From a virus, in IMG/VR virus record IMGVR_UViG_3300010885_038727, positions 1 through 29,517 of that record: a stretch of DNA of 29,517 bases. The stretch is one strand, 5' to 3'. The translations under genes and the position numbers were made by a program. Each line of letters starts with the position of its first letter. Positions within the stretch are counted from its first letter, which is position 1. Below the pieces are notes generated by a model, which made no database searches, was not told where the DNA came from, and saw nothing but the letters and a program-made list of their open reading frames with translations. Below are positions 1 to 27,874 of the stretch, one piece after another.

Positions 1-3000
1 GCCGCGTTGAACGTGTTCTGCAAAGCGTTTGCAAAGAAGATTCGGTTGTCCAGGGTGATCGGCCGAACGTTGTCGTCGTTCAGAAAGTAGTTTGCCCCCT
101 CGCCGATGAATCCGAACGTCCCGATTCGGCTGGCGTTATCGAGAGCGGTGAGCATTCCGGACTTCACGTCGTGGATCTCCCCAAGATCCGACACGTTCAT
201 CTTCCGGCCGAGAACGTCCTCATCGAATTTATTGCGCAGCCAAGCCGCTGCCATGCCGAGCGGGAGGATGGCCAGATATGCTGTGAGCCCGGTCCTGAAC
301 GCTTTCGTGGTGGCTTCGCCGTTGGGTTCACGAAGCTGGCGCAGCACCTGGTAGGTCTTCTGCAACGGCCAGCCAAGAAACGGGTTCATTGCCGCGCCAA
401 GGCCGGTCGTCTGTAACGCAGGCATGCGACTGGTCAGCGACGATTCCAAGGTGATCTCATTCAACGTCAGCTGTTGCAGGGCGCGGTCCACGGCAGGGCT
501 GAGGATGGGCTTCTTGGTGCCGCGGTTCTTGTAAGCCTCGCGGGAGAGCTGTTCCAGACTGAACCCGAAATCGTTCATGCGCTTCGTGAGGAACCCAAAC
601 TCGCGCTCCCCGGCGTTGAACCACGGTGCAACCATCTTCCGGTTAAACGTGTGCCCAGCGTTGTCGAGAGCTTCCGGGTGCTCCATAAAATACTTCACGC
701 CAGCAATGACCATGCCTTCGATGTGACGTTGCCAGGTGATGAAGTTCGAGATTTGCAGGCTTTCGGCGACGAGGTGAAATGGGGAGAACGCCTTGAATGC
801 GGGGGCGATGGGTAGCCCGGCGGCCTGACGTTTGACTGCGGTCTGACGCGCACCAGGCAGCCACGCGTCGGTGTTGAGCATCGCACCAGCCGTGTCGGCC
901 ACTTTTCCAACGACCTGACCAATCCTGCCTGATCCTTTGTAGGCAGCTTCGGCGTGCATCCAGGCGTTTGTTAATCGCTGCCGGTTGGTGTTGATGGGGT
1001 CGAACAATCCGGCCTCGTTTGCCGCCAGCATGCGGTCTGACTCGAAGATCACCTCGCGCCCCACCGATTGGAGAAGTGTATTGGCCATGACCTTGGCAAA
1101 GTCGAATACCGACTGTGCGGTCAGCTTGAGTGACCGGGCGTTGAGACCTAGCAGTCGGGTTGGCTGCTCCAAGAATACGCTGTGGGCAGTGATAGCCGTG
1201 CCAGCGCCGCTGACGGTCCAGCCGCCGATTGTTCGGACCAGTCGCGCCCAGGGTTGCAGTTCCGGAATGCGGCCGGAGTTGTTCATATCTTTAATGCCCG
1301 AGAAATGCTTGAGCACGCTTTGCAGTTCAGAGAGATGCTTCTGGGAGTTCTTGAGCGCCTCGTAGGGGATACCCTCCGCCGTGGCCATCGTTTTGATGCG
1401 CTCCTGGATCTGCTTTTCGCTGATGCCGGGGTTGTTGTTCTGGAGACCGTGCCGCATGGCGGTGTATTTGGCCGAAAACTCCTTCTGCTCGTTTATCGCC
1501 GTGGCCATGTTGCGGTCCATTGCCGTGCCGTTACGCCCGAACGCCGCCTGGAACGCCTGCGCATGAAGGATCTTGTCCATCGTGTGCTGATCGTTCATCA
1601 GGTATTCGAGCCACTCCTTGGGGGCAGACTCGATGTGGCGTGCGTCGACGATGAACCGTTTTGGTGCCGCAGACCCGCCACGAACCGCCTCGGCCTCGTC
1701 TCCTACCATTGTCCGAAGCAGGTTTTGGTAGTTCTGAATGGTGTCCAGCGTTTCCGACACGAACGAGGAGTCGGGTTGATAACCGTGCAGCTCGGCCAAC
1801 TGCTCGGCGAATGTCACCGGGTCATTGGAGTTCTCGAACGCCTTGATGATGTTCTCCCGGGTGGATAGAGGCTGGATTCCCTTCTCGGTCGGGGCATAGA
1901 AACCTGGGCGATCGTTGTGCGCGAGCGACTTCATGAACCAGTCCCACACCGGCTGGGTGAACCTGGACTCCAAGCTCTGGCGCAGTTCGTCTGGATTCGC
2001 GTTGTAGGCTGCCGCGATGTCTTTCTGCTTCAACGCGTCGCCGGTCCACGCGGCCATGTGTTCGCGGTAGAAATTATAAGCGATGTCGGTGATCGCACGC
2101 GGGAGCGTGAAGGGCGCCTTCCCAAGCACCGGCCGGTAGATCTTGTAGTTCCCGTCTTGATCCAAAACCTTCAAGCCCAGTTTGGCTCCATTGGCCACGA
2201 GCATATCGGCGTTGATGACGTGCTGACGTAGCAGCTTCTCCATCGCGACTGCGGCCTTGGGCGTCTTCAGGTTCATGCTGGCCACGGCCTGCTTAATAGC
2301 CACGTCCACGGCCGTCTTGGTATCCTTGGCGGTGACCCAGATCTTTTCCCCAGTCTGTTCCAGCTCATGCAAAGCAGGCCCAACGACCTTGTTCCAGAAA
2401 ATGGTTTCGCTTGCGGCGGGGTATCCTGCGGCATCTCGCGCATTGTTCAGGTCCGAGGTGAAATTTGTTCCCACCTGTTGCGATTCCCGCATCTTGGCCC
2501 GGATCTCCTGGGAGTATTTATTGAATGCTTGGCCGACCAGTCGCGCCATTGGTGTTCCGGCCTGACTGGCTTGATCTTGGATGGGTGCGAGCATTCCCTC
2601 GACGAAAGAGCTCTTTAGGTTCAGGTGTTCGGCGGTGACGAAGTGGTTGGCCAGCTTGTCCAGCGCCTCCCGCATCTCGTAATACTTGGCCCCGGTCTTT
2701 TGGTTTTTAGGGTTAAGCAGCCATTTGTCCATCGACTGCATCCATTCAACAGTCTCGGCGGTGGCGGTGGGGAGTTGACCGCGCTTGCCAATCTCAGTCC
2801 TGAGGTTCAGGCGCTTGGGGATGATGTTGCCGTTGGCATCTGGCACAGGCACCTCCGCGCCGTGGTAGACCTCAAAGGATTTCAGTTGGATGCCGGCTGA
2901 CTGTTCCAAAGCTGCCATGCGCCGCTGAATGTCCGGCTTGAACACCTCGGAATGGAATTCGACTGTGGCGCGATTCCGTTCCACTGAGCGCATCAGTTCG

Positions 3001-6000
3001 TAATTATCGTTTTTCAGTTCCGCAATCCGGTCGCTGACCCGCAACATGCGCTCCATCATTCCCCGGTTCTGGCTGAACGCATCACGAATCTGGGCCTTGA
3101 GTTCCTGCCTTGCATCTTTCTCTGCGCCGATCAGGTGCTTTAGGAACTCGTTTGCCTTCGCCCGATCCGCCCCCGCCTTGTTCCTGAGCGACAGCAGGTC
3201 CATCGTTAGGCTCTTGTTCGATTTCCCGAAAGAGATGATCGTCGCCAGCAAAGCGCGTGACCGGTCGGTATCGGCAAAGAACTGCCGCAGATGTTCGTCC
3301 TGATTCTCCAGGAACTTCTGCCGCATTACCTCCTTTAAGTCGTTTGTCGGAATGCTCCAGTCGATGCCTAGGTCCGCCACGTGTTGCAGCGTGTCTGAAA
3401 ATCGCAGCTTGGTTTGCTCATCCTCAAAGTCTGGCCTTTGCAGCATGTCACGCACTTCATTCAAGGCCAGCTTGTAGGACTGCGGTATATCTCCTTTGAT
3501 GCGTGAATCCAACTGACGCAAAACCTGACCGAGAACTCCCTCTTTGGCGGCGTAATCGCGAATGCCTCGCTGCGTGTCTTTCACGTAGTCGATCAGGTTC
3601 AGAATGGATGATTTGGCTTGGTCCGCCATGTAATCCAGATCCACGTAATGCTTGCTCACCCGGACCAGATTGTCGTTGTTCCGCTTCAGCTCGCTGGAGT
3701 TGGATTTCCACTCGACGCGCGCCTCCATCTCTTGGCCAGCCATGTGCGCCTGCCACGATGCCATGAGTCGGTGTGTGATGGCTTCAGCGACGCGTTTGGA
3801 CTGGTCGTTTGGCAAGTCGTTCATCCTCGTATCCCTGTTCACGCCATGCTGTTGTGCTGCGTGATCAATCAGGGACTGAGGGGTGGCGCCATTCTTGAAC
3901 ATGTCCGAATCGCCGACCGTCTCAGGGAGGGTGATGAAGAATTTGGCGATCTGCTCAGGGCTCAGCCCGGCGGTGTTGTTTCCAGAGTTCTCCCACTCCT
4001 TGATCTGGGCATGGATTGACTCCATGAAATGGTTGAGTGATGCGATGCCAACGGGCGCACCGGCCGCAGTCTCCAGCAACCGCTTCGGATTCGTCACTGG
4101 GTTTATGCCGGAAAAGCGCTCTTCTATCGCAGGCTCAGCAGCCTCGGCCTTGGGGACGATATTCGTCGGATCGAGGTATTCTTTGGGTGGCACTGGCCGA
4201 ACTGTTCCCGGCTCAGGCTTTGATTGAAACAACGAACCGCCGGGCTCGAAATCTCTTGGTGTGGAAATGCTGATCGATGGATCGAAGATGGAGATGTTCC
4301 CATTTTTAAGCCGCACCGCATTGCCTTCGTGGATGTCGCCCACGGAAATACCTTTTTCCTGAGAGTAGTATTCGTTTCCTTTATAGCGCTCAAAGCCACG
4401 CTGTTTCATGTATGCCTCCACCTCGGATCGCGTGGCTGGGGTTCCATTGATCTCGGGCTGCTTTACGATCGCGTAAAGTTTAGGGGCTTGACCTCGCATC
4501 CCCCCCTCATCAGGTATGCCCTTGTCCCGAACAAACCCGAGCAACTCATAGGCCGTGTCTGGAAAGAGTTGACGATGCAATTCCAAGTTGTTGAGGTAGT
4601 CCTGCCACGATGCGTGATTCCCGCCGGTTTCCTTGCCTTGTCCGACGGCAGGATTGCGCTTGATGTAGCTTCCTTTGCCGTCGGGGTAAACCTCGTGCTC
4701 AGCCCCGCGAGTCGCATTCTCAACGGCATCCGGATCGTTAGGCATTTTAGCCTCAAGCCGATCGAAATTCTTCTGCCACTTGCGCTCGAATTCCTCGTTG
4801 TTCAGCATCAACCTGTTTGCTGTGGCAAACTTGGTGAGCGCCGCCTCTTCTTTTAGGGCGATCTGCCTTTTGATGAGGAGCGCTTCTGCTGGAGTCCTTC
4901 CTTCTGCTCCCTGAGCCTGCGTGCCCGATGCAATGCGATTGCTTGATCGGTCGATTCCTCCCACGACAACACTGGCTGCTCGGAGATTTCTTTCAGATTC
5001 TGAGCGTTGCTCTCCACTTCGAATTTGTTCAGCTTTAGTTTCATTGCTGCCTTTCTTGTTACCACGCTTGTCAATATACCGCATCGTCTGGGGCTGGATC
5101 CGCTCCCAATCCGTCATCTTCATCCGTGGTCCACCCAGGAAGTTCATGTAAGACATGGCTGCGTCGCCGGAGAGAACCATCTTCATCCGATTCTCGAAAT
5201 AGGCCAGCGCCCGCTCCTGGCTCACCGGATAGTCACGGAGTTTTGCATACCCCATCAGCGTGCCGAGGTAGATGTCTTTTATCGCCCTCCACAGCCGCTG
5301 GGACCAGCTCGCCGCCGTGTTCGGATCGAACCCCTCCCGCACCAGCTTGTGGGCAATCGACTCGACCAGGCGGCCTTCCGTCATCACGCCGGACCTGTTT
5401 TCGGGCTTCACCGTGGCCGAGACAGTCTCTTGGAATGTCCGGGCAATACCCAGTTCGTCATTGGTAAGCGAAGCTACTACGCGATGCAGACTGGCCTGCA
5501 TCTCTGGAGTCTCTCGGGCGAACAGTGCGTGCCCGGCCTCGTGGAACAGGCTTACCAAGTTGTCCACGGTCGGCGTGTGCATGTCTGCCACCGACCATGT
5601 GATTATCCTGGCAATGCCCCCTTTGTTCCCCTTCAGCTCAGTGTATGATCCGAAGTGGTTGCCTAAAACATCGAGCACTCGACTCATCCGAATCCCCAAG
5701 GCACGCAGGTTGCGTTCCACCGTGTTGGCCATCTCAGCAGTTGCCGCATCAGAGGGCCTGAGTCGATCTACTTGCTTCTGGGCGGCGCGAGTCCTGCCCC
5801 TCGCAGATTGCTCCAACATTTCCGGAGTGGCCGGGATCTCGTCTCCTCCGAAAGTGTGGATGACCAGCTCCCCGGTATCAGGGTCTGCGTGGATCAGCCC
5901 CATCTCTTTGCCGATCTTTACCGGGATGCCGGATCCTGTGCTTTCTGGGTCGTCGCTGAAGATCTGGTTGGCGGCGTCCTCGATGTCAGCTCTCTCCTCG

Positions 6001-9000
6001 TGGCCTTGAGCTTCGGCCAATCGTTCCGCTATCGCCTCAAGCTGACCGCGCTCCTTGGTGGCGAGCCCTTTTTGATCTAAAATCTGAACGGTCTTTACCG
6101 GTTCCTTGGCCTTTACGCTGCCGGGATCTTTTGCGGCAGGACTCTCAGGTTCTGTGGCAGCGGGTTTTGCTGGATGTTTTGCTCCAGCTTCTGCATTCGC
6201 GTCTGTTCGCGCTTCAGCTCCGCCTGCTCCTGGTTGATTGCCAGTTGGCGCTGGGCTTCCTGTTCGCTCTCTGGCGGGAACATGCTCGGGCATTGCCCGC
6301 TGGTCTTGGCCGCCTTCACGAAATCCTCGACGACTTTCGCGTAGGAGGGATTCTGTAAACGCTTCCGGCCCGCCGCGAGCTCCTTGTCCCAATTTCTGTG
6401 TATTCTCATAGTGCTCAAAAAGTTTTATGCCAACAATGTCTGAGATCTGTTTAGCAGTCTGTTTTTTAGGATCTAACCCAAGGTCATGAATTAGGGGTTC
6501 GACTGCTCCAAAGGCGCGGGCCTTGTTTAACGCCTGAATAACGTCTTCCGTGTTCTGGGGTTTGTAATCTTGCAGAGCGTCCCAAATGACCTCTGCGTGC
6601 GGCTGGTCAAAATGCGGGAACTCAACTGCAACATGTCGGTTGGCAACATCGACAGCGTTGCCTTCTGCGTCGGAAAGCTGAATTCCGGATGCAATCGATT
6701 CCTCATCTCCAGAGCCTTGGACATCGCTCGAACCTTCCTGCCTCTCCGGGGTGTTGACGCCTTTTCGGAATTCGTTGCTCGACTCCAGCCAGTTCATCAT
6801 GGCCTCGGTCGTGCGCATGCTCGCTCCGCGTATCTCGCGAAAACCCTTTTCAGCCAGATGCCATTGCTCTGGTGTATAGGTGGAGAAGTTGCCTTTCAGC
6901 GGCTTGTCTGACTTGATGGCAGCCAGAGGCGTCCATCCCTTTTCGACCATCTCATTGACGTTGCTGGCGTGCCAGTTGTTGCCTTCGCCAGGGGATTTGC
7001 GCCCGCAGCCGATGCTGTAGGTGGAGAGTTTTTCGGTGAGCTTTCCGTTCTTCTGAGTTTTGGTGGCAACGCCCAGGAGAACGTGTGTGCCATCCGGAGA
7101 CAGCATGGCCAAGAGTTTTCGGCTGCTCGTTTTGCTTTGGTCTGCCTTGTTGTCTTCGTAAGCTGCACGGATCACGGCTGCGGTCTGCGTATCACCGGGG
7201 ATGTTCGGATTCGGTTTTACCGTGGTCAGGTCGAGGTAGAGCGCAGCCCGTTTCTGTCCCAGCCCTGCCACAAGAGTTTGCAGCGTCTCTTTGCCCTTCT
7301 CTAGGGTTTTAGCGATCGCCCTGATGATTTTATTGGCAGCGTCCTCGTTGCCGTCTTCTCGCAACTTGTATGCCTTGTTGAGCTGCTGCTCTTGGTATTC
7401 TTCGCCGGTCGTCTTGGCCTCTTTTGTCTCGGTTCGGACAGATGCCACCTTGCCTGATTGAGCGACGTCGCGGACTGATTCCACGAGTTGATTCGGATCG
7501 CCCTGATAGTTTTGCCACTCCTGTTTTACTTCCGCAGGTTTCATTTCTGCGGGTCTGGCCTCCTTGGTGACCTTGGACTTGGCTTCTTCAGCCTTAACCT
7601 CAGCCGATTTCGTTGCTATTTCTGGCGGAATGCGGTTGGCGTCTAAATGAAGATCAGGCGTGGCGGGCGCCTTCCCTGCGTTCCGATCATTCAGCACCTC
7701 TTTCAAGATCCGTATCCGATGCTCAGAGTGCTCGTCTGGAATCGCAGCAGCCGTTTCCAATCGTAGCTGTAAGTTCTCCGTGGTCAGAGTGTTGGCCCAT
7801 GTGCGAGTGGCGTGCTCCAGCCCTTCGTTCATTCTCCGTTGCTCTGGTGGCGGGGGGGCCCGGTTGGGCGCGGCTGCCGCGGGAGGGGCTGTTTTGCCTT
7901 CGGGTTCGTCGTGATCAACCTCTTGCAGCTCCCCAAAACCGTCAGAGGAACTCCTTGATGGTGCGCCTTTGATTGCTGACGTTGAAACAATCGGCGGCTC
8001 ATCAACGATTGGAATGGTCGGCTTTGCCTCAACCTTGGCGGCGGCCACGGTGGGAACAGGGTCAGGCACTTTGCTGGCGGCGGGCACGCCCACTGGGTTG
8101 ATCTGCTGAACCGGAATATCTGATGCAGTCGATACGGTCGGAGGGGGAGCAGCGGTGACTGGAGTTTCCGCCACCTGTGCGGGAGCTCTCACCGGATTTG
8201 CCGCTTCTTCCGCTCGAATCCACTGCCCCTCTGGACCCTTCACCCACTTTACTGGCATGGCAGCAGCCGCAGCTGCGTTCCGCGCCGCCGCCGCCGCGTC
8301 ATCAGATGCCTTCTTGGCATCAACCTTTTTCTGATCCTCAATCTTGCTGGCCTTGATCATCTCTTGGGTGATGGAATCGGCCCAGAACTGCTTGTAGCCA
8401 TCGTAGGCTTTCTTGACCTCATCATTCCCGCTAGCCATCTCGCCGTAGCGTGCCACATCATCGGGAGTTTGTGCGCCTGCCACCTCGCGAGCCGCCATCG
8501 CAGAGAGTTCACCGCGCTGAGCGGGGGTGAGCTCAGTCGGAATAACACGACTTTCCTGAGTGTATGTCTGTGCTGGATTCTTCAGCGGATTCGCGTGATC
8601 TGCGTCTTTTGCTGCCTCCTCCTTCGTGATCGCAGCCTCAGCTGACCGGCCGAACATCTCATATCGAGGGTGCCCCAGGATCAGCGAACTGGCGAAAGCC
8701 TCGGCTATGCCTTGTTTCGTCGGGCTGTCGCCCATCAAATAGGGTTGGAACACCGACATGCCGGTCCCAATACCCACCTGCTGGATGGTGGCCATCGCAG
8801 CCTCGCGCTCGCCTTTTTCCAAAGCATTCAAGCCACCAGCCCTCGCAGCCTTGTAAATCGCACTGACGCCCTTTACCGATGTGAGCGGAGCAAACTCGAA
8901 CATTGGAAGTGACGCCGCGATCCGTCCGACAGCCCCAGCTGCGGGATGCTGAGCATCGCCAGCCTCCAGCCGTTGATTGAATCCCTCCGTCTCCTTAGGT

Positions 9001-9488
9001 GCGATGTATTGAGCCGCTTTATGCTGAGCCCAGGCTGTTCCCGCACTCGCAAAGGCTGCCGCCGTCATTCCCCCCAGAAGTGCGCCCGCGGCACCGCCGA
9101 CCTTGGCCCCTATCACCTCCGATGCCCCCGTCTCGCCCGCAAAAGGCACGAAAGCGCCCGCAAATGCGCCGACAGCTTCGCCAATAGGCTCACCGATTGC
9201 CGCCCCTTTCGGGAACGCCACAGCCCCAGCGGCGATCGGCCCAAGTTCAGACACGCCAGCTCGCGCTCCTGTCTCCAACGCGGACACTTTCGGTTGAGTC
9301 GGCGCGTTAGGTTCCGGGTTGACAGTCAGAGCCTTGAAAGCTGCTTCCGCGTAAGGGTCTGACGATGGCGGCTCAATTCCGTTGGCGTCTCCACCGGTCG
9401 GGTCGGGGGCTGCCGGTTGCGTCGCTTCTGGTTGACCACTTCCCGATAAGCGTCGAAACGCTTCACCCGCGTAGTCAGTGTTGTCCAT
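1..9488 (-). CDS. Giant phage polyvalent protein (partial, 3' end beyond window): peptidase and kinase-like domains, probable ejected virion protein
   Basis: One frame is open from the ATG at 9488 to the left edge, 3162 codons with no stop, so the C-terminus is outside the window. I read it codon by codon. The start lies 4 bases after the preceding stop and has no Shine-Dalgarno. Visible parts in order: a Gly/Ala-rich hydrophobic segment (about residues 70-150), Pro/Ala-rich linkers (about 430-550 and 1065-1125), an HEAGH zinc-metallopeptidase motif (1316-1320) followed by a Glu/Ala helix that could give the third ligand, a protein-kinase-like domain (about 1590-1735; candidate ATP-binding Lys near 1610, loop GDIHEGN at 1717-1723, then a DP in the DFG position), long helical stretches, and a hydrophobic segment near 3062-3085. 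The family known as polyvalent proteins combines such domains and is thought to be delivered with phage DNA. Its position after two gp14/gp15-like genes suggests the gp16-like ejection protein. The domain calls are by motif only. Confidence 0.88.
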   Translation of the reverse strand, partial: MDNTDYAGEAFRRLSGSGQPEATQPAAPDPTGGDANGIEPPSSDPYAEAAFKALTVNPEPNAPTQPKVSALETGARAGVSELGPIAAGAVAFPKGAAIGEPIGEAVGAFAGAFVPFAGETGASEVIGAKVGGAAGALLGGMTAAAFASAGTAWAQHKAAQYIAPKETEGFNQRLEAGDAQHPAAGAVGRIAASLPMFEFAPLTSVKGVSAIYKAARAGGLNALEKGEREAAMATIQQVGIGTGMSVFQPYLMGDSPTKQGIAEAFASSLILGHPRYEMFGRSAEAAITKEEAAKDADHANPLKNPAQTYTQESRVIPTELTPAQRGELSAMAAREVAGAQTPDDVARYGEMASGNDEVKKAYDGYKQFWADSITQEMIKASKIEDQKKVDAKKASDDAAAAARNAAAAAAMPVKWVKGPEGQWIRAEEAANPVRAPAQVAETPVTAAPPPTVSTASDIPVQQINPVGVPAASKVPDPVPTVAAAKVEAKPTIPIVDEPPIVSTSAIKGAPSRSSSDGFGELQEVDHDEPEGKTAPPAAAAPNRAPPPPEQRRMNEGLEHATRTWANTLTTENLQLRLETAAAIPDEHSEHRIRILKEVLNDRNAGKAPATPDLHLDANRIPPEIATKSAEVKAEEAKSKVTKEARPAEMKPAEVKQEWQNYQGDPNQLVESVRDVAQSGKVASVRTETKEAKTTGEEYQEQQLNKAYKLREDGNEDAANKIIRAIAKTLEKGKETLQTLVAGLGQKRAALYLDLTTVKPNPNIPGDTQTAAVIRAAYEDNKADQSKTSSRKLLAMLSPDGTHVLLGVATKTQKNGKLTEKLSTYSIGCGRKSPGEGNNWHASNVNEMVEKGWTPLAAIKSDKPLKGNFSTYTPEQWHLAEKGFREIRGASMRTTEAMMNWLESSNEFRKGVNTPERQEGSSDVQGSGDEESIASGIQLSDAEGNAVDVANRHVAVEFPHFDQPHAEVIWDALQDYKPQNTEDVIQALNKARAFGAVEPLIHDLGLDPKKQTAKQISDIVGIKLFEHYENTQKLGQGARGGPEAFTESLLRESRRGFREGGQDQRAMPEHVPARERTGSPAPTGNQPGAGGAEARTDANAEAGAKHPAKPAATEPESPAAKDPGSVKAKEPVKTVQILDQKGLATKERGQLEAIAERLAEAQGHEERADIEDAANQIFSDDPESTGSGIPVKIGKEMGLIHADPDTGELVIHTFGGDEIPATPEMLEQSARGRTRAAQKQVDRLRPSDAATAEMANTVERNLRALGIRMSRVLDVLGNHFGSYTELKGNKGGIARIITWSVADMHTPTVDNLVSLFHEAGHALFARETPEMQASLHRVVASLTNDELGIARTFQETVSATVKPENRSGVMTEGRLVESIAHKLVREGFDPNTAASWSQRLWRAIKDIYLGTLMGYAKLRDYPVSQERALAYFENRMKMVLSGDAAMSYMNFLGGPRMKMTDWERIQPQTMRYIDKRGNKKGSNETKAEQIRSGEQRSESERNLRAASVVVGGIDRSSNRIASGTQAQGAEGRTPAEALLIKRQIALKEEAALTKFATANRLMLNNEEFERKWQKNFDRLEAKMPNDPDAVENATRGAEHEVYPDGKGSYIKRNPAVGQGKETGGNHASWQDYLNNLELHRQLFPDTAYELLGFVRDKGIPDEGGMRGQAPKLYAIVKQPEINGTPATRSEVEAYMKQRGFERYKGNEYYSQEKGISVGDIHEGNAVRLKNGNISIFDPSISISTPRDFEPGGSLFQSKPEPGTVRPVPPKEYLDPTNIVPKAEAAEPAIEERFSGINPVTNPKRLLETAAGAPVGIASLNHFMESIHAQIKEWENSGNNTAGLSPEQIAKFFITLPETVGDSDMFKNGATPQSLIDHAAQQHGVNRDTRMNDLPNDQSKRVAEAITHRLMASWQAHMAGQEMEARVEWKSNSSELKRNNDNLVRVSKHYVDLDYMADQAKSSILNLIDYVKDTQRGIRDYAAKEGVLGQVLRQLDSRIKGDIPQSYKLALNEVRDMLQRPDFEDEQTKLRFSDTLQHVADLGIDWSIPTNDLKEVMRQKFLENQDEHLRQFFADTDRSRALLATIISFGKSNKSLTMDLLSLRNKAGADRAKANEFLKHLIGAEKDARQELKAQIRDAFSQNRGMMERMLRVSDRIAELKNDNYELMRSVERNRATVEFHSEVFKPDIQRRMAALEQSAGIQLKSFEVYHGAEVPVPDANGNIIPKRLNLRTEIGKRGQLPTATAETVEWMQSMDKWLLNPKNQKTGAKYYEMREALDKLANHFVTAEHLNLKSSFVEGMLAPIQDQASQAGTPMARLVGQAFNKYSQEIRAKMRESQQVGTNFTSDLNNARDAAGYPAASETIFWNKVVGPALHELEQTGEKIWVTAKDTKTAVDVAIKQAVASMNLKTPKAAVAMEKLLRQHVINADMLVANGAKLGLKVLDQDGNYKIYRPVLGKAPFTLPRAITDIAYNFYREHMAAWTGDALKQKDIAAAYNANPDELRQSLESRFTQPVWDWFMKSLAHNDRPGFYAPTEKGIQPLSTRENIIKAFENSNDPVTFAEQLAELHGYQPDSSFVSETLDTIQNYQNLLRTMVGDEAEAVRGGSAAPKRFIVDARHIESAPKEWLEYLMNDQHTMDKILHAQAFQAAFGRNGTAMDRNMATAINEQKEFSAKYTAMRHGLQNNNPGISEKQIQERIKTMATAEGIPYEALKNSQKHLSELQSVLKHFSGIKDMNNSGRIPELQPWARLVRTIGGWTVSGAGTAITAHSVFLEQPTRLLGLNARSLKLTAQSVFDFAKVMANTLLQSVGREVIFESDRMLAANEAGLFDPINTNRQRLTNAWMHAEAAYKGSGRIGQVVGKVADTAGAMLNTDAWLPGARQTAVKRQAAGLPIAPAFKAFSPFHLVAESLQISNFITWQRHIEGMVIAGVKYFMEHPEALDNAGHTFNRKMVAPWFNAGEREFGFLTKRMNDFGFSLEQLSREAYKNRGTKKPILSPAVDRALQQLTLNEITLESSLTSRMPALQTTGLGAAMNPFLGWPLQKTYQVLRQLREPNGEATTKAFRTGLTAYLAILPLGMAAAWLRNKFDEDVLGRKMNVSDLGEIHDVKSGMLTALDNASRIGTFGFIGEGANYFLNDDNVRPITLDNRIFFANALQNTFNA

Positions 9489-9492
9489 TTAT

Positions 9493-11913
9493 TTATTGGG
9501 TGTATTGAAATGCAGGGCCGGCAGCGGGAGAGGCGTTGCCTTGATTGTTCCAGTAGCTCATGTTCTGCAACTGCGGCGTGTAGGCCCCCGATGGATCTGC
9601 GTCGGGAATCAGACCGTGGAAATCCATGTTTCCGGTGGATGGATTGAACGAGGCTCCTCGCGGAACAGCTCCGATCTGCTGACGCCATCCTGCGCCCGCT
9701 CCGGCACCACCATAGCTGCCACCACCGCCGACAAATGGCTGGACGGGTTGGGATGGCGCAGCAGGGTAATACACTTGGGGAACCTGAGGCGGTGGAGCAT
9801 TCACCGATTGCTGGGCGTAGACCGGTGCGCTCAATGCGACTGCCGGAGGTTGCGCTGCCATAGCTACAGCAGGGGGGTAGGCAACCGGAGCTGAGACAGC
9901 CGGCGCTGGTGGCGCAGGTGCATACGTCGGAGCGTAGATAGGATTCGACCGTGCCACCACCTGGGGTGCCTGGTTGGTGACATACGTGACAGGCTGTGGC
10001 GGAGCAACAGGCTGCGGTGTCATGCCTTGAGGCCACTGAAGCCAGTTCGCCGGCACTGGATTTCCAATAGGAACACCGGTCGGCATCGCGGGCATCGCGG
10101 GCGATGTGCCCGGCGGTTGCATGCCGGGTGGGTATCGAAGCCATCCATCAGGTATCGGAACCGAACCACGCGGCGAAGGTGGCATTTGCGGACTCCAGTT
10201 TGTCCACTGGTTTGGCCAATTTGAGTTGGTGCCCTGTGGCGGCGGCGGTGTCGTGGGACCTGAGACGATTGTGGTGCCTGCTGGTGGGACGAACGCAGGA
10301 TTCGTGGCAAGCAACTGTGTGATATTTAAGCTAGGCGCAGTGGCGGACGGAGGTGTTACCGGATTCCCTGGTTCGGCAATACTGCCGTCTGGATTGAACT
10401 GCTGTGCTCCGATTTGCCCTAACCATTGGGGCTCCGGAAGTGGGAGGGGGCTGAAACGAATCGCGGGCACTTGCTGGGCGTAGGCGTCCATCGGCGAAAC
10501 GCTGCTGTCGAACAGGGATCCAACCCCGCGACCTAAATAGCCAATCGGATTCAGCGCAGAGCCGCTTTGCAGCTTAGCCGCGCTGGCCATGTCCTGCGGC
10601 GTCATGAATCTAGATGTGTCAGGTAGGTTGAATGTGTTGGCATTGCCAGTCATTGCTAGATCCCTAAAAACACCAGGGACTTGTGCCAAAGGAGCCGTAT
10701 TGGTTGGATTCCCCTGTGCATCGTAGCCGGGCGCCATGTAACCATCCCCGGTATAAGGCTGCGCCTGCCTAGGGTTGACTGGGTTCGCGGGACCGGCACC
10801 GGCACTGGAAACCCCGTTGCCAGCACCTCTACCGTCACCACCGGCAGCCGAAGCATCATCAGCGGCCGAAGCGTCTTCCTTGGATTTGTAGTAACTCGGA
10901 AACCACTTGTGCTGCTGCTCAGGGTCGTTAGCCAAATTGACAGCATCCGACATCCAAGGCTTAGGAATCATGCCACCATGTGGCCCAGGCATGAGCCCGG
11001 TTGATTCGATCTGCTTATCAATTCCAGCCAGCTCGGCTCTCTCTAGAGTGGCACGACGCGCTTCAGCCTGGAAACCCGGCGACAGCATGGTCTTGCCGTT
11101 GTCGCTCAACCACTTGTTTGCTAAAGCCTCATGCACCGCCCCGAATCGCGCGTTGAATAGCGCTGTGATCTCAGCCGCTTTTTCCGGATGCGATTTCAAC
11201 GCGTCCTTTAGATCGCTGCCATACCCTGCGTCCACGACAGCCTTCTGGGCGAGCCCCTGAGCCTCAAGGGCGGTTAATTCATTGGACCTCTTTTGCACCG
11301 CCAGAAACTCTGGGTTTGTCGAAAAACTTTGAGCATAACGTTCCATGTTGGCAGTCAATTCAGTCTTCTGAATGTTCAGATGAGCCAGCCGGTGTCCGTC
11401 AGATTGGATATTGTCCTGCCTCTTGGCGGTGATCGCAGCCTCAATTTTCTTCAGGTAGCCAGCCTCATTCGGATCCCCTTCCGGCATGCTCCCACCATAC
11501 CTGTTCACAAGGGTGTCGAGCTGCTGCGTCACCATCGTCATCCCCTGTTTTTGGACGAGGTAATCCAACCTGGCCTTGCTCTGCTCATGCGCGACGTCCA
11601 AGAATCGCTGGTCCCGCATCTTCTCTCGTTCAAGCTGGGATGAGTGCTGCCATTGCGCCAGCTCTCGTGCTCGATCGTTGTTCATCGTAGCCATCTGTAT
11701 GGCGCGCTGGTTCGCCTGGTCCGCAATGATCGAGGAGTGCTGGTTGTTGATTTGCTGCGCAAGAAATGCGTTTTGCGCGGCATTGTTCAACTCGCCCGCT
11801 CGCGTCACGGGTTCAGCGGCAGATGCCCCCATCTTGGCAAAATCCGTCACACTGGGCGCTTGCCATCCAAAATCGAGAACCCGCACTGCCGGTGAAGTGA
11901 CTTGTTCAGACAT
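9493..11913 (-). CDS. Putative internal virion / ejection protein (gp15-like position), 806 aa
   Basis: The N-terminal third (about residues 30-330) is charged and helical, rich in Gln, Glu, Lys and Ala, and likely forms coiled coils. It includes the run QLEREKMRDQRFLDVAHEQS. The C-terminal half is low-complexity Pro/Gly/Ala/Asn/Gln sequence with many PP and PQ steps and is probably disordered. There is no signal peptide or membrane segment. The ATG at 11913 follows an AT-rich stretch with no Shine-Dalgarno, 10 bases after the previous stop, and its own stop is 4 bases from the giant gene. I infer an internal virion protein from the order: membrane-anchored protein, helical protein, giant protein, as in T7 gp14-gp15-gp16. 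I see no sequence signature that proves homology; a tail-associated structural protein is the alternative. Confidence 0.8.
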   Translation of the reverse strand: MSEQVTSPAVRVLDFGWQAPSVTDFAKMGASAAEPVTRAGELNNAAQNAFLAQQINNQHSSIIADQANQRAIQMATMNNDRARELAQWQHSSQLEREKMRDQRFLDVAHEQSKARLDYLVQKQGMTMVTQQLDTLVNRYGGSMPEGDPNEAGYLKKIEAAITAKRQDNIQSDGHRLAHLNIQKTELTANMERYAQSFSTNPEFLAVQKRSNELTALEAQGLAQKAVVDAGYGSDLKDALKSHPEKAAEITALFNARFGAVHEALANKWLSDNGKTMLSPGFQAEARRATLERAELAGIDKQIESTGLMPGPHGGMIPKPWMSDAVNLANDPEQQHKWFPSYYKSKEDASAADDASAAGGDGRGAGNGVSSAGAGPANPVNPRQAQPYTGDGYMAPGYDAQGNPTNTAPLAQVPGVFRDLAMTGNANTFNLPDTSRFMTPQDMASAAKLQSGSALNPIGYLGRGVGSLFDSSVSPMDAYAQQVPAIRFSPLPLPEPQWLGQIGAQQFNPDGSIAEPGNPVTPPSATAPSLNITQLLATNPAFVPPAGTTIVSGPTTPPPPQGTNSNWPNQWTNWSPQMPPSPRGSVPIPDGWLRYPPGMQPPGTSPAMPAMPTGVPIGNPVPANWLQWPQGMTPQPVAPPQPVTYVTNQAPQVVARSNPIYAPTYAPAPPAPAVSAPVAYPPAVAMAAQPPAVALSAPVYAQQSVNAPPPQVPQVYYPAAPSQPVQPFVGGGGSYGGAGAGAGWRQQIGAVPRGASFNPSTGNMDFHGLIPDADPSGAYTPQLQNMSYWNNQGNASPAAGPAFQYTQ

Positions 11914-11923
11914 AAATTTAGAA

Positions 11924-13120
11924 TCAGGCTAACATTGCTGTGTCGGATGCGAGGGCTGTGTCTGCACCCATGCTGCCGGCTCCAGCGGTCGATCCACCAA
12001 AAGAGCCTCCTCCCATCGCATCACCAGCACCGCCCGCTATCCCAGCACCGCCGGAGCTCCCTGCGTTATACATCTGCGGGCTCTGATACATCCCGTAGTT
12101 GGAAAGGTTATTGTTTCGCTGGAGCTGGTTCATGTAGTCGTATTGCTGCTTCATGAGCTGCTGTTGATTGCTGCGCTGCATGTAGGCACCAGCCATCTGA
12201 CCTCCAGCTCCTCCCAGTGCCGAGGCCATGTTCGCGCCACCCATGTAAGCCCCCGGACCCGGTGTCGGTAGCGGCTGGTATTGGAACGGCCCGGTGTAGC
12301 CGATCTTCACCGCGTTAAAGGGTTGCATCCGTTGGCCAAGGCTTTGCAAATACTGATCGCCCGGCATCATGGCTGTCTGCCCATTCTGCTGTGCCATCTC
12401 ATAGGGCAGCTTTAGGTTCTGCATCGGCATGGTGATGTCGCCGTAGTTCCGAATGTCGGCGTTCTGTTGGAGGTTCTGCTGATTGGCTGCGCCAACGGCA
12501 TTGCCAGCTCCATTGGCCCCTTGGAACTTGAGCAGTCGGTTGCCGTAGGAATCCCCCACATAACCGCGGCTGGCCTGCTGCGAGTCAATCTGGTCGAGCG
12601 TCTTTTGCAGGGCGTCCAAAGAGGAAGACTTTGCTGTAGCCAATCTCGCCTCCTGCACCGGTGCCGCGTTTTTAAGGAGCCTGTTCGTGACACCGCCGTT
12701 AAATATGTCGTTGGTGAGCCCGGTTGCGGCCTGCTCGGACTGAGCCGTCTTGGCGCTGGCGCCTTGGAAGGTCGACAGCGGTAGCGCGGTCTGATTATAG
12801 GCGCTCACCAGATCGGAGCCGAGCTGGCCTCCCTCAAACGGATTGCCGTTGGCGTCCTTCAGATACGTGGGCAGGACAGCGCTGCCCTCCGACCCGTGCG
12901 CCTCTTGGAACATCTGGTAGTTCAGCTTGTTGGCGTCCCCCTGTGATTTGGCAGCCATGTCCGCCGCGTGTTTCTGGGCCTGGGATGACGCATAACCCGC
13001 ATAGGCCGTTGCGCCTGCCGCCACGGCCGCCACGGCCACAACGGCAAAAGTGTAACACCGCGGTTTCTCAAACATCCGCCCCGGACGCGTGGTCCATTCT
13101 ATTTCATGGTGCAAATTCAT
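11924..13120 (-). CDS. Putative internal virion protein with N-terminal membrane segment (gp14-like), 398 aa
   Basis: An N-terminal hydrophobic helix (about residues 24-45, core FAVVAVAAVAAGATAYAGYA) is followed by a Gln/Ala/Lys-rich helix containing SSQAQKHAADMAAKSQ. That arrangement is common in the smallest podovirus ejection protein, which inserts into the host outer membrane. The middle is Gln/Asn/Ala-rich and the C-terminus is Gly/Ser/Ala-rich with GGGSFGGS-type repeats. The start overlaps the stop of the cupin-like gene (ATGA at 13120-13117) and is preceded by AAGGAG with an 11-base spacer. A second Met at residue 16 lies closer to the membrane helix and could be the true start. The role is inferred from architecture and from the neighbours downstream. 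Confidence 0.8.
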   Translation of the reverse strand: MNLHHEIEWTTRPGRMFEKPRCYTFAVVAVAAVAAGATAYAGYASSQAQKHAADMAAKSQGDANKLNYQMFQEAHGSEGSAVLPTYLKDANGNPFEGGQLGSDLVSAYNQTALPLSTFQGASAKTAQSEQAATGLTNDIFNGGVTNRLLKNAAPVQEARLATAKSSSLDALQKTLDQIDSQQASRGYVGDSYGNRLLKFQGANGAGNAVGAANQQNLQQNADIRNYGDITMPMQNLKLPYEMAQQNGQTAMMPGDQYLQSLGQRMQPFNAVKIGYTGPFQYQPLPTPGPGAYMGGANMASALGGAGGQMAGAYMQRSNQQQLMKQQYDYMNQLQRNNNLSNYGMYQSPQMYNAGSSGGAGIAGGAGDAMGGGSFGGSTAGAGSMGADTALASDTAMLA

Positions 13121-13599
13121 AGGTTTTCCATCTCCTTGGGTTTTCCGTTGTCAATCCTCGCCGCGGGACGGAACGTCGGCTCTTCGGTGATCAGGGCGGT
13201 GATTCTTTCCGGATCGGTTTCGTTCGTCACGTGGCAGGTGATCCAGACGCAATCCTCGTGAATGTTAAGCACACGCTGTGTTCCAGGTTTGGTGATGCCG
13301 CAGTAAGGTGCGCGAAAGTGTTCGATGCCAGACTCAGTCATCACGGAGGCATGCCCCTTGGCCACGATGAACGGGTGCTCAGTCAGATGCTTGCGGCTGA
13401 TCACCATTGTCCCTTTTGGCATGAATATCTCGCGGATATACATGCCAGGCGTGAAACGGTGCGTCAGCGGACATGCAACCTGAGGCAACTCAGCCCAGAC
13501 ACGACCAACATCCTCGATCTTTTCGCCATAGCTGCGATCGGTATTGTCCTGGTTGATTGTGACGCCGCTCATCCAATCGGGTCGGAGTTGGTTTTGCAT
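13117..13599 (-). CDS. Cupin-like phage protein, 160 aa
   Basis: The central part (about residues 45-130) reads like a single small beta barrel: it contains PGMYIREIFMPKGTMVISRK, then a His-rich strand (HLTEHPFIVAKGHASV), then alternating strands ending in CVWITCHV. Gly/Pro turns and His residues at strand ends resemble the cupin fold. Whether a metal site is complete cannot be told by eye. It starts 3 bases after the tail-fibre gene and ends in an ATGA overlap with the next gene, so it is translated as part of the tail/ejection operon. GGAGG lies 8 bases before the ATG. It may be a fibre accessory or a small virion protein; an enzyme acting on host or capsule sugars is an untested alternative. 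Confidence 0.8.
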   Translation of the reverse strand: MQNQLRPDWMSGVTINQDNTDRSYGEKIEDVGRVWAELPQVACPLTHRFTPGMYIREIFMPKGTMVISRKHLTEHPFIVAKGHASVMTESGIEHFRAPYCGITKPGTQRVLNIHEDCVWITCHVTNETDPERITALITEEPTFRPAARIDNGKPKEMENL

Positions 13600-21653: not shown

Positions 21654-23552
21654 TTACTTGTTCGCCGAAAGATCGCATCCGGGAACGGTGAGCTTGGCGC
21701 AAGCGTCGCTGTAGTTCTCAATCAACCGGTGTCGGTTGGTGTTTCCTACGGAGACCTCAAAGGTTCGGCTGTTGAGCAGCACGTGCTGGACGTTCTGCTG
21801 AATCACGTATTTGTAGACGTTATCCGCCAGGTTGTTCGTGCGGGGCACGGACATGTTCTTGATGATGCCGACCATCACATCCGACCAGTCGATCATCCAG
21901 ATCGCTCGGCCACCGGATTTCTGACCAGTCTGGAACTGGGCAACCTTGTCATCAAAATATTGGTCGCTGAACACGTTGAGCGTGTAGCCGTAGTCAGGCA
22001 GCTCGTAGCTGTCATACTCGAACATCACTGATCCGTTGAAGGTGATCTTCTTGCCCGACTCCATCCACATGCTCACGTTGTCGATGCCATACTTCTGCTT
22101 GTAGTAGCGGGTCATCATCTGACGGAGCAGGGGACGGGTGAAGCGCAGATCCGTCATGATGTCGATGTCCGTCACTTCGGAGCCGCTTTCGCCTTCGCGC
22201 TCGCGTTTCACGTAGTAGCCGGCCTCGAACAGGGCATCCACGTCGAGTGGACCCGCCTGAGCGTCGTAGACATTGCCGCACGCGGCAATCTGAGTCCGGA
22301 TGCCCAAGGTGCGGGAAATATATTCGATCGCCAGGGTGCCGGACTCGCCGGATGAGGCCCATGCCGGATCGTTCACCAGCGGCAGGTTGTTCCAGCCGGA
22401 AAGTGATTGGTTTTCGTTCTCACCGTCGCCGTAGAACGCGGATTCATAGAAAAAATCTTCCATGAACTTCTCTTGCTGGGCACGCAAGCGGGCCAATGGG
22501 AGGAGGCGGAACTTGCGCAGTCCCTCGCTGGTTGTCGCCGATTCAAGGGCCTTGACGTATTCGTCGTTGTATTTGTGGACCCACCGGTGCGTCTGGCGCC
22601 AGTATTCCACCAGCCCATACTCGTTGTAGCCAGGCAGGGCGTTGCCGTACTGCTGAAAGTCGCTCACCGAGTTGGCACCGATCTTTGCGATGCCGGTGAT
22701 CGGTTGATACGCCAACTTCTGAGCGGCTGTGGCGGTCTCATACCAGCCGGCCGTGCTAGTGGTCAGCACGCCGAACGCGCCGGTTGTTTGAGATGTGCCG
22801 TTGCCATTGGGGGTGAGCGTCCCTGATGGGACGGTGCTGTCACCCTTGAAGGTTTTATTGGGAACCACCAAGACGTAGCAGGTGTTGGTATCGGCACCCG
22901 ATGCCGCATCCACAATGCGCAGCTGACTGGTGTATTTCGTGCCATCCGCACCAACGAATTCCACCGTCAGCGAATGCCGGGGTAGAAAGTATTTCTCGGG
23001 GTTCTTTAGGACGTTGTTCGGCGACTTCGCAAAAGGTGAACTGTCGTAATCCGAGCTGCCGTTGTTGATCGTCAATACCCAAGGGGCAGTGACGAGGGCG
23101 TTTAAGGTGATCGTGCCGTTTGCGACGCCTTGAAAAGTCCCAAGAGTCCCGCCTGAAGGGGTGAAGGCTGACAGCAGGACGCCGGTTGCAACCCGGAAGT
23201 AGCCAGGATTAACCCGGTTGCGGCGAGGCACCAAGCGAAAGGGCTGAATAACCGACTGCGGACTGACACCGCCACTCACTTTGAGGGGGGTGTGGCGCGA
23301 GAGCAATAGGTCAGTCAGGGTTCGCTGCTTGGACCCAGCCATGCGGGCTTCCTTGGACTGAGCGATGATCTTGTCAAGACCCACCTCCTTGAACATCACC
23401 GACTCAATGTCGGACTTGTTCCAACCCTGCACGGTGGCACGGGTGAGACTCATCGCGTCATCCACGACGATCATTCGAGGGTCGCAGTTTGTCCCGAAAC
23501 CGTTCGCTGCGCTATTCGGGGCTTGCGCTGCCCCAGCTGGTGTGTTGGCCAT
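21654..23552 (-). CDS. Major capsid protein, 632 aa
   Basis: Assignment rests on order and layout: portal, scaffold-like protein, terminator, then this gene with its own leader. The N-terminus is Ala/Asn-rich and flexible, followed by a helix region (WNKSDIESVMFKEVGLDKII) and a long central beta region. The C-terminal half has Tyr/Trp-rich strands and helices (LRQMMTRYYKQKYGIDNVSM), as expected for a HK97-type fold with insertions. At 632 residues it is larger than most capsid proteins (often 300-450), so it probably carries an inserted domain in the beta-rich region around residues 130-300. The 141-base upstream gap carries a terminator and a dyad. There is no Shine-Dalgarno before the ATG. 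Confidence 0.8.
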   Translation of the reverse strand: MANTPAGAAQAPNSAANGFGTNCDPRMIVVDDAMSLTRATVQGWNKSDIESVMFKEVGLDKIIAQSKEARMAGSKQRTLTDLLLSRHTPLKVSGGVSPQSVIQPFRLVPRRNRVNPGYFRVATGVLLSAFTPSGGTLGTFQGVANGTITLNALVTAPWVLTINNGSSDYDSSPFAKSPNNVLKNPEKYFLPRHSLTVEFVGADGTKYTSQLRIVDAASGADTNTCYVLVVPNKTFKGDSTVPSGTLTPNGNGTSQTTGAFGVLTTSTAGWYETATAAQKLAYQPITGIAKIGANSVSDFQQYGNALPGYNEYGLVEYWRQTHRWVHKYNDEYVKALESATTSEGLRKFRLLPLARLRAQQEKFMEDFFYESAFYGDGENENQSLSGWNNLPLVNDPAWASSGESGTLAIEYISRTLGIRTQIAACGNVYDAQAGPLDVDALFEAGYYVKREREGESGSEVTDIDIMTDLRFTRPLLRQMMTRYYKQKYGIDNVSMWMESGKKITFNGSVMFEYDSYELPDYGYTLNVFSDQYFDDKVAQFQTGQKSGGRAIWMIDWSDVMVGIIKNMSVPRTNNLADNVYKYVIQQNVQHVLLNSRTFEVSVGNTNRHRLIENYSDACAKLTVPGCDLSANK

Positions 23553-25112: not shown

Positions 25113-27566
25113 TTACTGTGGCTGCGGCGGGGATACCGGCTGCTGCGTTGGGGGCTGGGTTTGTTGCTGGTCGGGTTGACCTTGACCTGGTTGCTGCTGG
25201 GATTGACTCTGGTTTTGTTGTTCGCTCTTCATTGCCGCGGCGACCATCTGAGCGGCTTGAGGGTTCACTTTTCCCATGATGTCGAAGATCGCCGTCATGG
25301 CGTGGTGTATCTGATCGATGTCCTGCGAATCTTTCTGGACGGCTTGGGCGAGTCGCTGCATTCCATCCATGACCTGCTGGTTCTGTGAGATCAACAGATT
25401 GTTGTCATCTCCCGGCTTCAGCTCCAGCTTGAGGTCCACACCTGCATCCGCGCATTTGAAGATCTGGTTCAGGATCTCGAACACCTTCTCTTTGCCCATT
25501 GCGCCGATCACGGCTTGTTGGATGTCTTTCTCAAGCCCGCCAATTGCCTGCAACATTTGGATGAGCACGGTCGCGGCCTGCTGACCTGCCGGCCGGTCTC
25601 CGCCATCCCGGGAGGTGAATATAAGGTCGTGAACCAAGTTGTTCTTGCTTCCGGTCACACGGGAATACCCCGCCAGATCGCCCATCTGATCCGAGACCAC
25701 CGTGAACCCGGCCTGCTTTACCACGCTCGCAGGGTATCGGCTGCTCACCGTCAACTCCACGTCGTCACTGCCACAAGCGACCAGCGAGTCGAAGCAGATA
25801 CGCTTCATGGCTGCACGCCCCTCGTCAATGCCCACGCTGATGAAGTCGTAGACTGTGTCGGTGGACTGGCTGATCTCGTGTGACTCGGTAGCACTTATTT
25901 CGTGACTGGCGGCCTGACCTTGCTCGTGCGTCGACATTACCATCAGCCGCTCCGCCATTTTTACCGTCTCTGAAATGGATTGGAAGATCTTGTCTATGTG
26001 TGTGTTGGGCGATGACCGAACCACGGTGAACGCCTGCTCAGGCTTGATGCCCAACTGAATCAGCTTGTTGAAGCTCACCTCCAGCATCTGCATCGAACAA
26101 TAGGTCGCCTTGTTCTGCATGAGCGCCTCGAACTCAGCCAAAGCCTGCTTTCCGTGCGCGTCGTCCGGAAAGACGTCCGTGTTGAGCACGCAAACGCTGA
26201 AAAGATCCTGCTTGATAGTTTCCAACAACTGACTGAAGAGGTTGGTTAACTGATCCTGAAAGGGCATGAGCTCATGCGCCATCGAGATATTGAAGAGTCG
26301 AGCGTCGTTTTCGTTGTAGCTGAACGTGGCCGCAGGGCAAGATGGGACGATCTTGGCGTAGACGACCGTTGCGTCGCCCGCCACTTTGAGATGCACCCAG
26401 ATCGGATGCGGGTAGCGGCCCCAGCCCCAGTTCTGCGGCCGCACCTTGATCCAGAGATGGGTAAAGATCGTGGAGACCTGCTCCATCTGGCCCGTGAAAA
26501 GACCCACCTGGTTCTTTCGGTCGTTGGTGAAATTGACGTTGTCACCCCGCGCCTGCGGCATCGACGGCGGGATCACGGTCGTAAAATACTGGTTGAAATA
26601 CGCCCAGTAGGTGCTGAACCAGTCCACCATTCCCGAGGTGTAGCTGACCCGCTTGCGATTGAAATAGTCCGCGTTGTTGGCAATGTCACCCCAGCGTGTC
26701 ACATCCCAGAACCCGATATACTCACAGCCCGTATCCTCGTTCAGGGATGTCAGCGGGTAATTGTTGTCGTAGAAGACCCGGGAAGGGTGGGGCAATACCC
26801 AGCTCAGCCCTTCGCGCAAGACTCTGGTTCGCGTTCGCAGCTTGCCGTCCTCGTCCTTCAGAAGGTTCCCTGGCATTCGCTCCAACTGAATTTCCCGCTC
26901 CCAATGCGCCCGGGGGAACGCCACGCACTTGGAATAAAGCAACATGTGGAGCACAGCCTGGGACGTGAAATGCCGATACCCATACTGATCTGCCATAATG
27001 TCCATTCGCTGACTGACCATGTCGGCTCGCAGCTTGCCCACCTGAGTCTGGTCCCGAGGCTCATACTTGAAGTAAGGCCACATCCGGTCGTATTTCTGGA
27101 TCTGAGCAGCCCGACGGCGGGTGATCACACTCCGGAGCAGATTCACGTTTACCTCGAAAAACCGGGGCGCATCCACCCCGATAACCTCACCCTTATCGTT
27201 CTTGCGCAAATAGCTGGCTCCGTTTGGCACATCCTTCATCGAGCGTCCCACCTGCGCCATGTCGATCCGCCCTTGGGCATATTGCATCAGCGGCACAATC
27301 GCGCTGTTCACTGGAAATGAGTCCCACGCCATGTCTACGGCAGCGAGCTTTGAGTGGTTGGAGAGCGAAAAAACGATATGCTCCTGCAACAGGCCGGCGA
27401 TGTATTTCTCGAACTTTGCTCGGTTGTTGATGTCGCGCTCACGGACCCTAAGTTCCTCGGCTGCCATCTTGAGGCGCTGCGGAGACGTCGGCTCAACCGC
27501 GGTGAAGAAGTCGCGCAGTCTCTGGTCTGTGGTGCCGTATTCGGCTAGGATTTCGTAGTCAATCAT
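25113..27566 (-). CDS. Portal protein, 817 aa
   Basis: The protein forms the dodecameric ring through which DNA is packaged and ejected. The start at 27566 is fixed by an ATGA overlap with the upstream gene and GGAGAG 6 bases before it; longer in-frame starts upstream lie inside that gene. The N-terminal helical region is followed by a mixed core with many Trp/Tyr (NWGWGRYPHPIWVHLKVAGD), a long helical stretch (about residues 460-640) and a Gln/Pro-rich disordered tail after about residue 770. Size is above the 500-700 usual for portals but within the range of larger podovirus portals. Position next to terminase, scaffold and capsid makes this the best reading, although I cannot show homology by eye. 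Confidence 0.82.
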   Translation of the reverse strand: MIDYEILAEYGTTDQRLRDFFTAVEPTSPQRLKMAAEELRVRERDINNRAKFEKYIAGLLQEHIVFSLSNHSKLAAVDMAWDSFPVNSAIVPLMQYAQGRIDMAQVGRSMKDVPNGASYLRKNDKGEVIGVDAPRFFEVNVNLLRSVITRRRAAQIQKYDRMWPYFKYEPRDQTQVGKLRADMVSQRMDIMADQYGYRHFTSQAVLHMLLYSKCVAFPRAHWEREIQLERMPGNLLKDEDGKLRTRTRVLREGLSWVLPHPSRVFYDNNYPLTSLNEDTGCEYIGFWDVTRWGDIANNADYFNRKRVSYTSGMVDWFSTYWAYFNQYFTTVIPPSMPQARGDNVNFTNDRKNQVGLFTGQMEQVSTIFTHLWIKVRPQNWGWGRYPHPIWVHLKVAGDATVVYAKIVPSCPAATFSYNENDARLFNISMAHELMPFQDQLTNLFSQLLETIKQDLFSVCVLNTDVFPDDAHGKQALAEFEALMQNKATYCSMQMLEVSFNKLIQLGIKPEQAFTVVRSSPNTHIDKIFQSISETVKMAERLMVMSTHEQGQAASHEISATESHEISQSTDTVYDFISVGIDEGRAAMKRICFDSLVACGSDDVELTVSSRYPASVVKQAGFTVVSDQMGDLAGYSRVTGSKNNLVHDLIFTSRDGGDRPAGQQAATVLIQMLQAIGGLEKDIQQAVIGAMGKEKVFEILNQIFKCADAGVDLKLELKPGDDNNLLISQNQQVMDGMQRLAQAVQKDSQDIDQIHHAMTAIFDIMGKVNPQAAQMVAAAMKSEQQNQSQSQQQPGQGQPDQQQTQPPTQQPVSPPQPQ

Positions 27567-27874
27567 TTCGATCTCTCCAACAGGTTCATCGGTATTATGG
27601 GCGCCCAAGGCTCGCCAAAATTTCGTTCTTTGAGCACCGCATCTAACACCGCAAAGTGCAGGCTCACCGGGGCTGGGAACCGTTCCGACCCCATATACAT
27701 TCGCGTCTGCGACGGTTGCAGTGCCGCCATCGCTCCAATCTCCTCCGGTGTTCGGTTGGCCAGGTGGCAAAGCTGAATGAACCGGCTTGCCGTCCACCCG
27801 GGCATGACCAGCATTTGCCGGTAATGGCTCAGCACCCGCGGGGCAATCAAATCGTCATCCGGAAGACGAGTCAT
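27563..27874 (-). CDS. Small helix-turn-helix-like protein, 103 aa
   Basis: Residues about 27-85 (beginning WTASRFIQLCHLANRTPEEI, then GAMAALQPSQTRMYM) look like a Cro/XRE-type helix-turn-helix: helix, short turn, recognition helix, and a hydrophobic third helix (LHFAVLDAVL). The gene overlaps its upstream neighbour by one base (TGATG) and its downstream neighbour as ATGA, so it is part of the packaging operon. It could be a small terminase-like DNA-binding partner or a regulator. No Shine-Dalgarno is visible, and the motif match is not strong. Confidence 0.66.
   Translation of the reverse strand: MTRLPDDDLIAPRVLSHYRQMLVMPGWTASRFIQLCHLANRTPEEIGAMAALQPSQTRMYMGSERFPAPVSLHFAVLDAVLKERNFGEPWAPIIPMNLLERSK
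27573..27578 (-). promoter_or_regulatory. Ribosome binding site fixing the portal start
   Basis: GGAGAG lies 6 bases before the ATG at 27566, inside the end of the HTH-like gene. With the ATGA overlap it sets the portal start and suggests coupled translation. Confidence 0.7.

Follow-up and report, generated by a model that had tools for sequence, protein, structure and literature searches.

What is a protein of more than 3,000 residues doing at the end of a phage virion operon? The window analysed here is an entire IMG/VR record (IMGVR_UViG_3300010885_038727; 29,517 bases, classed as linear, with no N letters), and its left third is one open frame on the minus strand. We infer from the evidence below that this frame probably encodes an ejection protein, the largest in a set of three made by a temperate podovirus-like phage, and that the same chain is a polyvalent protein of the phage type. 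The virion block is read from right to left and contains the following features that are needed for the argument.

28280..29512, minus strand: terminase large subunit, cut by the window edge (PHROG and Pfam matches)
25113..27797, minus strand: probable portal protein, from its place between the terminase and capsid genes
21654..23552, minus strand: probable major capsid protein, from position and conservation (61-75% identity in relatives)
11924..13120, minus strand: candidate small ejection protein (pore), 398 aa, rich in Ala/Gly
9493..11913, minus strand: candidate middle ejection protein (tunnel), 806 aa, without Cys and ending in a long Pro/Ala tail
3..9488, minus strand: giant frame, 3162 aa, 5' end complete, 3' end lost at the contig edge

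The first-pass annotation had described a single frame of more than 3,160 codons from 9488 to the edge. This is confirmed, since 3,162 codons follow the ATG at 9488 without a stop. In 200 shuffles of DNA with the same bases the longest open frame had 399 codons (mean 206). A missed stop or an assembly join is unlikely, because the homologous frames are unbroken in five other contigs. The best-conserved parts of the giant have a dN/dS of ~0.10-0.25 against relatives, a rough value, as dS was saturated or undefined in many of the comparisons. Since the window is the whole IMG/VR fragment, the 3' end of the gene is missing and its stop is out of reach in this contig. In the alignment the giants of the close relatives run on for about 257-276 residues past window residue 3162, which suggests a loss of ~255-275 residues, and the complete protein is therefore predicted to have ~3,420-3,440 aa. 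The suggestion that it would be among the largest single virion polypeptides is fair as far as its size goes, but at ~3,430 aa it is not exceptional next to the N4 virion RNA polymerase (vRNAP; 3,500 aa), the giant of phage Parlo (3,764 aa) and the longest relative found here (4,956 aa).

Searching with the probable capsid protein uncovered five related IMG/VR contigs and, later, a sixth. Complete homologues of the giant come from five independent contigs, four of them found with the capsid protein (G001, 2,756 aa; G003, 2,816 aa; G002, 3,031 aa; G005, 3,256 aa); another contig, G004, stops short of the giant gene. A profile of the C-terminal core added the fifth, a 4,956-aa protein (G155, L053:259-15129), and a 1,724-aa protein (L028) that is a sixth relative and has the C-terminal core only. 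By hhalign L028 matches the core with 99.7% probability (E 5e-27, 1,014 columns; shuffled or reversed controls <=0.6%), and G155 matches the core plus the peptidase-like domain with 100% over 1,679 columns. The G155 giant is a single Cys-free frame with a kinase, a weak ART match and two HExxH motifs, and is longer than every virion protein compared in this analysis. In a tblastn search of annotated phages and plasmids no similarity was detected for the giant, its kinase, the portal or a 922-aa protein, and the terminase alone matched, weakly. Scanning genome contigs with the core revealed no relative, scans of viral contigs that used either the peptidase or an alignment of peptidase plus core yielded no further member, and a PDB sequence search returned a single chance match (E 0.83). 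In the collections searched this phage line is without a cultivated member.

The order of the block is terminase, portal, scaffold-like protein, capsid, small head and tail genes, a ~900-aa protein, the small and middle Cys-poor proteins and finally the giant, which is the last gene of the virion operon and lies on the same strand as the preceding virion gene, 4 bases from it. The probable portal aligns with the syntenic G155 gene at 100% in hhalign and the 398-aa protein with a 446-aa protein of G155 at 91%. The true start of the 398-aa protein may lie further in, judging from a relative that begins MAVVAG... The 806-aa protein exceeds its complete relatives (521-555 aa) by ~250-285 residues and has a Pro/Ala/Gln-rich C-terminal tail. 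A 160-aa protein ahead of the trio (13117-13599) matches short tail fibre / tail adhesin families (phrog_12032, E 1e-33), with counterparts among the relatives in G004 and G005 only.

The two genes upstream of the giant had been said to look like the smaller ejection proteins of short-tailed phages. Cysteine content supports this: all three proteins are poor in Cys, and two smaller genes followed by a large one make up a trio like those of N4-like phages and P22. In the window Cys occurs once in 3162 residues of the giant, not at all in the 806 of the middle protein and once in the 398 of the small one; the portal has 10/894, the terminase 10/410 and the capsid protein 5/632. In binomial tests, which assume independent residues, the scarcity in the giant has P = 5e-11 against the pooled other virion-block proteins, and that in the G155 trio (446, 553 and 4,956 aa; 0/5955 vs 34/4,082 in its other virion-block proteins) P = 2e-22. 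Family-wide, over sequences that are not independent of each other, the values are 1.26 (giant), 0.60 (middle) and 1.29 (small) Cys per 1,000 residues; the G003 and G005 giants hold six each. Base composition is not the cause, since TGC/TGT is abundant out of frame (93 and 99) and occurs once in frame in the giant gene. Proteins of known ejection sets behave alike: Cys is absent from gp50 (20,763 residues, six phages), gp51 (2,618, five) and gp52 (861, six) of N4-like phages, from P22 gp7, gp20 and gp16, from T7 gp15 and gp16 and from the Parlo giant, and T7 gp14 has one. The absence of Cys has been noted before for vRNAPs (PMC4837373, PMC10747016). Cys depletion alone is no proof of ejection, however, because scaffold-like proteins are Cys-poor as well.

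The giant itself is arranged, from N- to C-terminus, as an Ala/Gly-rich region, Pro/Ala linkers, an HExxH peptidase-like domain, a Kinase-PolyVal cassette and a mostly helical core.

8619..9251, minus strand: N-terminal Ala/Gly-rich hydrophobic region (aa ~80-290), kept in four relatives
7989..8348, minus strand: Pro/Ala-rich linker (aa ~381-500), with little conservation
6789..7271, minus strand: conserved domain without assigned function (aa ~740-900), from the alignment, AF2 model partly confident
5100..5819, minus strand: zincin-like metallopeptidase candidate (aa 1224-1463), from the HExxH motif and conservation
4104..5078, minus strand: inserted cassette (aa ~1471-1795), missing at the same place in all four close relatives
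4263..4733, minus strand: Kinase-PolyVal PF18762 (aa 1586-1742), E 5.8e-25, 88.6 bits, cut-off 27
3..4103, minus strand: conserved core (aa 1796-3162, truncated by the contig edge), predicted to be mostly helical, from alignments and profile comparisons

The N-terminal region is about half identical to those of G001, G002 and G003, and the stretch before the peptidase is variable among the relatives. A hydropathy scan of the giant found nothing above 1.6. AF2 models were of too low quality for searching structures (pLDDT 50.5 for aa 655-1475 and 44 for the C-terminus of G003). The HExxH motif occupies aa 1316-1320 (window 5529-5543) and a conserved E follows downstream in EGRLVES; the H, E, H and second E are invariant in all aligned members, including G155. 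On motif and conservation we regard the domain as a predicted peptidase-like candidate. No Pfam model matches either this domain or the ~1,600-aa core. The core recurs in proteins of 1,724 to 4,956 aa; we found no description and no annotated relative of it, and none of the annotated phage records searched carries it.

The kinase resides in a clean insertion of ~325 aa with intact flanks, which splits ...FLGGPRMKMTDWE / RFSGINPVTNP..., a junction that is unbroken in the four close relatives. Its domain retains the K and D-x-H-x-x-N...D residues. A kinase of the same family lies directly ahead of the peptidase in G005 (aa 1213-1376) and ~1,500 residues ahead of it in G155 (aa ~1415-1661), so that the family occurs at three different positions across the relatives. 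Pfam detected none in G001 and G003; G002, whose whole protein lay outside the Pfam scan, has no insert at the cassette site of the window. The window and G005 are 37% identical in the kinase and 38% in the core. Identities so similar do not distinguish descent from a shared ancestor, with loss and relocation, from separate gain. The G005 giant also carries an InPase domain; neither the inserted kinases nor the InPase domain contain Cys.

These features fit the layout of polyvalent proteins that the first-pass annotation had read from domain changes between the linkers. Disparate domains share one chain, a kinase far over its cut-off and an HExxH...E domain in the window, with InPase, kinase and sub-cutoff ART matches in relatives, and the gene is in a late context, on the same strand as the terminase and the probable portal and capsid genes upstream. 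The multidomain architecture, late-gene context, Kinase-PolyVal, HExxH motif and (pro)phage origin, together with the InPase and weak ART of the relatives, are shared with the polyvalent proteins of Iyer et al. 2017 (PMC5512222). In contrast to that class the family has a peptidase-like domain and core that Pfam does not match, and a kinase in three places. The comparison with polyvalent-protein domains gave a match for Kinase-PolyVal and none for the two other models: MPTase-PolyVal (PF18818), a zincin-like domain that is frequent though not universal among polyvalent proteins, matched in no member, and neither did LPD38 (PF18857) in a weak test that gave no match for the control genomes. The comparison proposed with T7 gp16 and N4 gp50 gave no significant hhalign match, and neither did T7 gp15, P22 gp16 and the StenR_269 giant; in hhalign none of the proven ejection proteins compared showed homology in sequence. 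The likeness to the T7 (gp14/gp15/gp16) and P22 (gp7/gp20/gp16) sets is one of arrangement, three Cys-poor proteins after head and tail genes, although those proteins are much smaller than the giant and lack payload enzymes of its kind. The DarB-like giant of the Serratia podophage Parlo and of Bcep22-like phages (PMC6606913) is, as here, very long, essentially free of Cys (0 in 3,764 aa) and equipped with HExxH motifs, and its gene closes the virion block of an integrase-carrying podophage. However, Pfam found none of its helicase, methyltransferase, transglycosylase and acyltransferase domains in the window giant, and hhalign of the two gave <=1.7%, which speaks against membership in the DarB/Bcep22-like group.

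N4 gp50 (3,500 aa) raises the question whether the giant could be an N4-type vRNAP of a divergent schitovirus, with a polymerase module too diverged to see. Both proteins have this size, stand last after two smaller genes and are nearly or wholly devoid of Cys, and in both an HExxH domain precedes a large helical C-terminus; in gp50 the order is payload, HExxH domain C1 and helical C2 (PMC12633501). The gene order of the virion block is also close to that of N4 and its kin, and similar to that of Parlo, a likeness of plan and not shown descent. We nevertheless consider this explanation improbable. No PHROG, Pfam or profile-profile match links the family to gp50 or any N4 virion gene, hhalign against six gp50 sequences was not significant, and no RNA polymerase domain was detected in the giant. 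Furthermore, the stretch before the peptidase varies among relatives, and a polymerase module would hardly fit into the relative of 1,724 aa. From N4 gp50/gp51/gp52 the trio differs in having no detectable sequence homology, and the relatives of the window carry integrases. Schitoviridae membership was rejected, as no pair, portal, capsid, terminase and ejection genes included, exceeded 3% probability in all-against-all hhalign. With regard to deep common descent the hhalign negatives against N4-like genes are weak evidence, because the test missed even the terminases.

The protein might instead stay in the particle as an internal structural or tail-length protein, its enzymes acting in assembly, for example in prohead processing. 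Its location in the virion operon, the peptidase-like domain and the Cys poverty of scaffold-like proteins would agree with this, yet the kinase, InPase and ART cassettes are variable and of a kind that is typical of proteins which phages deliver into the host for conflict (PMC5512222), and both the trio pattern and a place behind the tail genes fit ejection sets; we therefore hold this reading to be unlikely. Least probable in our view is a fitness or toxin protein that a prophage makes in lysogens, outside the virion. The giant is the last gene before the integrase genes in relatives and toxin systems with kinases are known, but the gap of only 4 bases to the upstream virion gene and a synteny kept in the relatives tie it to the virion block, and the large RHS and secreted proteins encoded in flanking DNA (12 and 10 Cys per 1,000) do not share its Cys depletion.

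If the giant is an ejection protein, as we favour, the head would contain several copies of it, located above the portal. The two smaller proteins (398 and 806 aa) would build an outer-membrane pore and a periplasmic tunnel, like the smaller N4 and T7 ejection proteins, and the giant would be threaded through both ahead of the DNA. For packaging and transfer the family would use one common chassis, made up of the helical core and the peptidase. The latter may cleave the chain in the virion or in the host and so separate the payloads, as an analogy to P1 DdrB suggests; N4 vRNAP is packaged uncut (PMC5512222). The kinase could then phosphorylate host proteins within the first minutes of infection. 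For packaging, threading and early phosphorylation the models are the N4, T7 and P22 systems and the work of Iyer et al. 2017 (PMC5512222).

With slightly less than even confidence we propose that the peptidase and the ~1,600-aa helical core are a self-contained delivery chassis by which very long proteins leave the phage head, with payload enzymes swapped as cassettes. If so, the same core would serve a nearly payload-free form of 1,724 aa, which has the core without the peptidase, and a 4,956-aa form with more than 3,000 payload residues, and it would correspond to the C1-C2 part of N4 vRNAP, either independently or after divergence beyond recognition. How proteins of 3,000-5,000 residues pass a ~35 Å channel, and which segment directs them, is open even for N4 (PMC12633501). 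Around a single core the family offers a series of natural deletions and insertions (1,724, 2,756, 2,816, 3,031, 3,256, ~3,430 and 4,956 aa), with which one can test which segment packaging and transfer need and whether the position of the cargo is free.

Integrase genes are present in the relatives. In G004 (L021:4059-7484) the integrase gene adjoins tRNA-Met and mnmE, and this contig is therefore probably a prophage in a tRNA gene. A 5.3-kb contig in the Acidobacteriia MAG Umea1_bin-2613 (L029:2875-4773) carries genes for a capsid protein with 100% and a portal with 97% identity to those of the window; nothing else of the left part of the window was found in that bin, and the contig is possibly a host hint or a binning error. 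Across its length the MnmE of G004 shares <=43% identity with its counterparts in 20 Acidobacteriota genomes, which argues against Acidobacteriota as the host of G004. Among the starts inspected (9488, 11913, 13599, 15906, 19144) most are without a clear Shine-Dalgarno sequence and several have A/T-rich leaders, and the start at 13120 has a clear one (AAGGAGATGG); this pattern may be a hint to the host group. In G003 (G003:1-38000; L016, L017) the prophage adjoins ~38 kb of DNA that looks bacterial or island-like and encodes an RHS protein with a Tox-SHH end, an Abi_alpha protein, DnaB and an AAA_5 ATPase.
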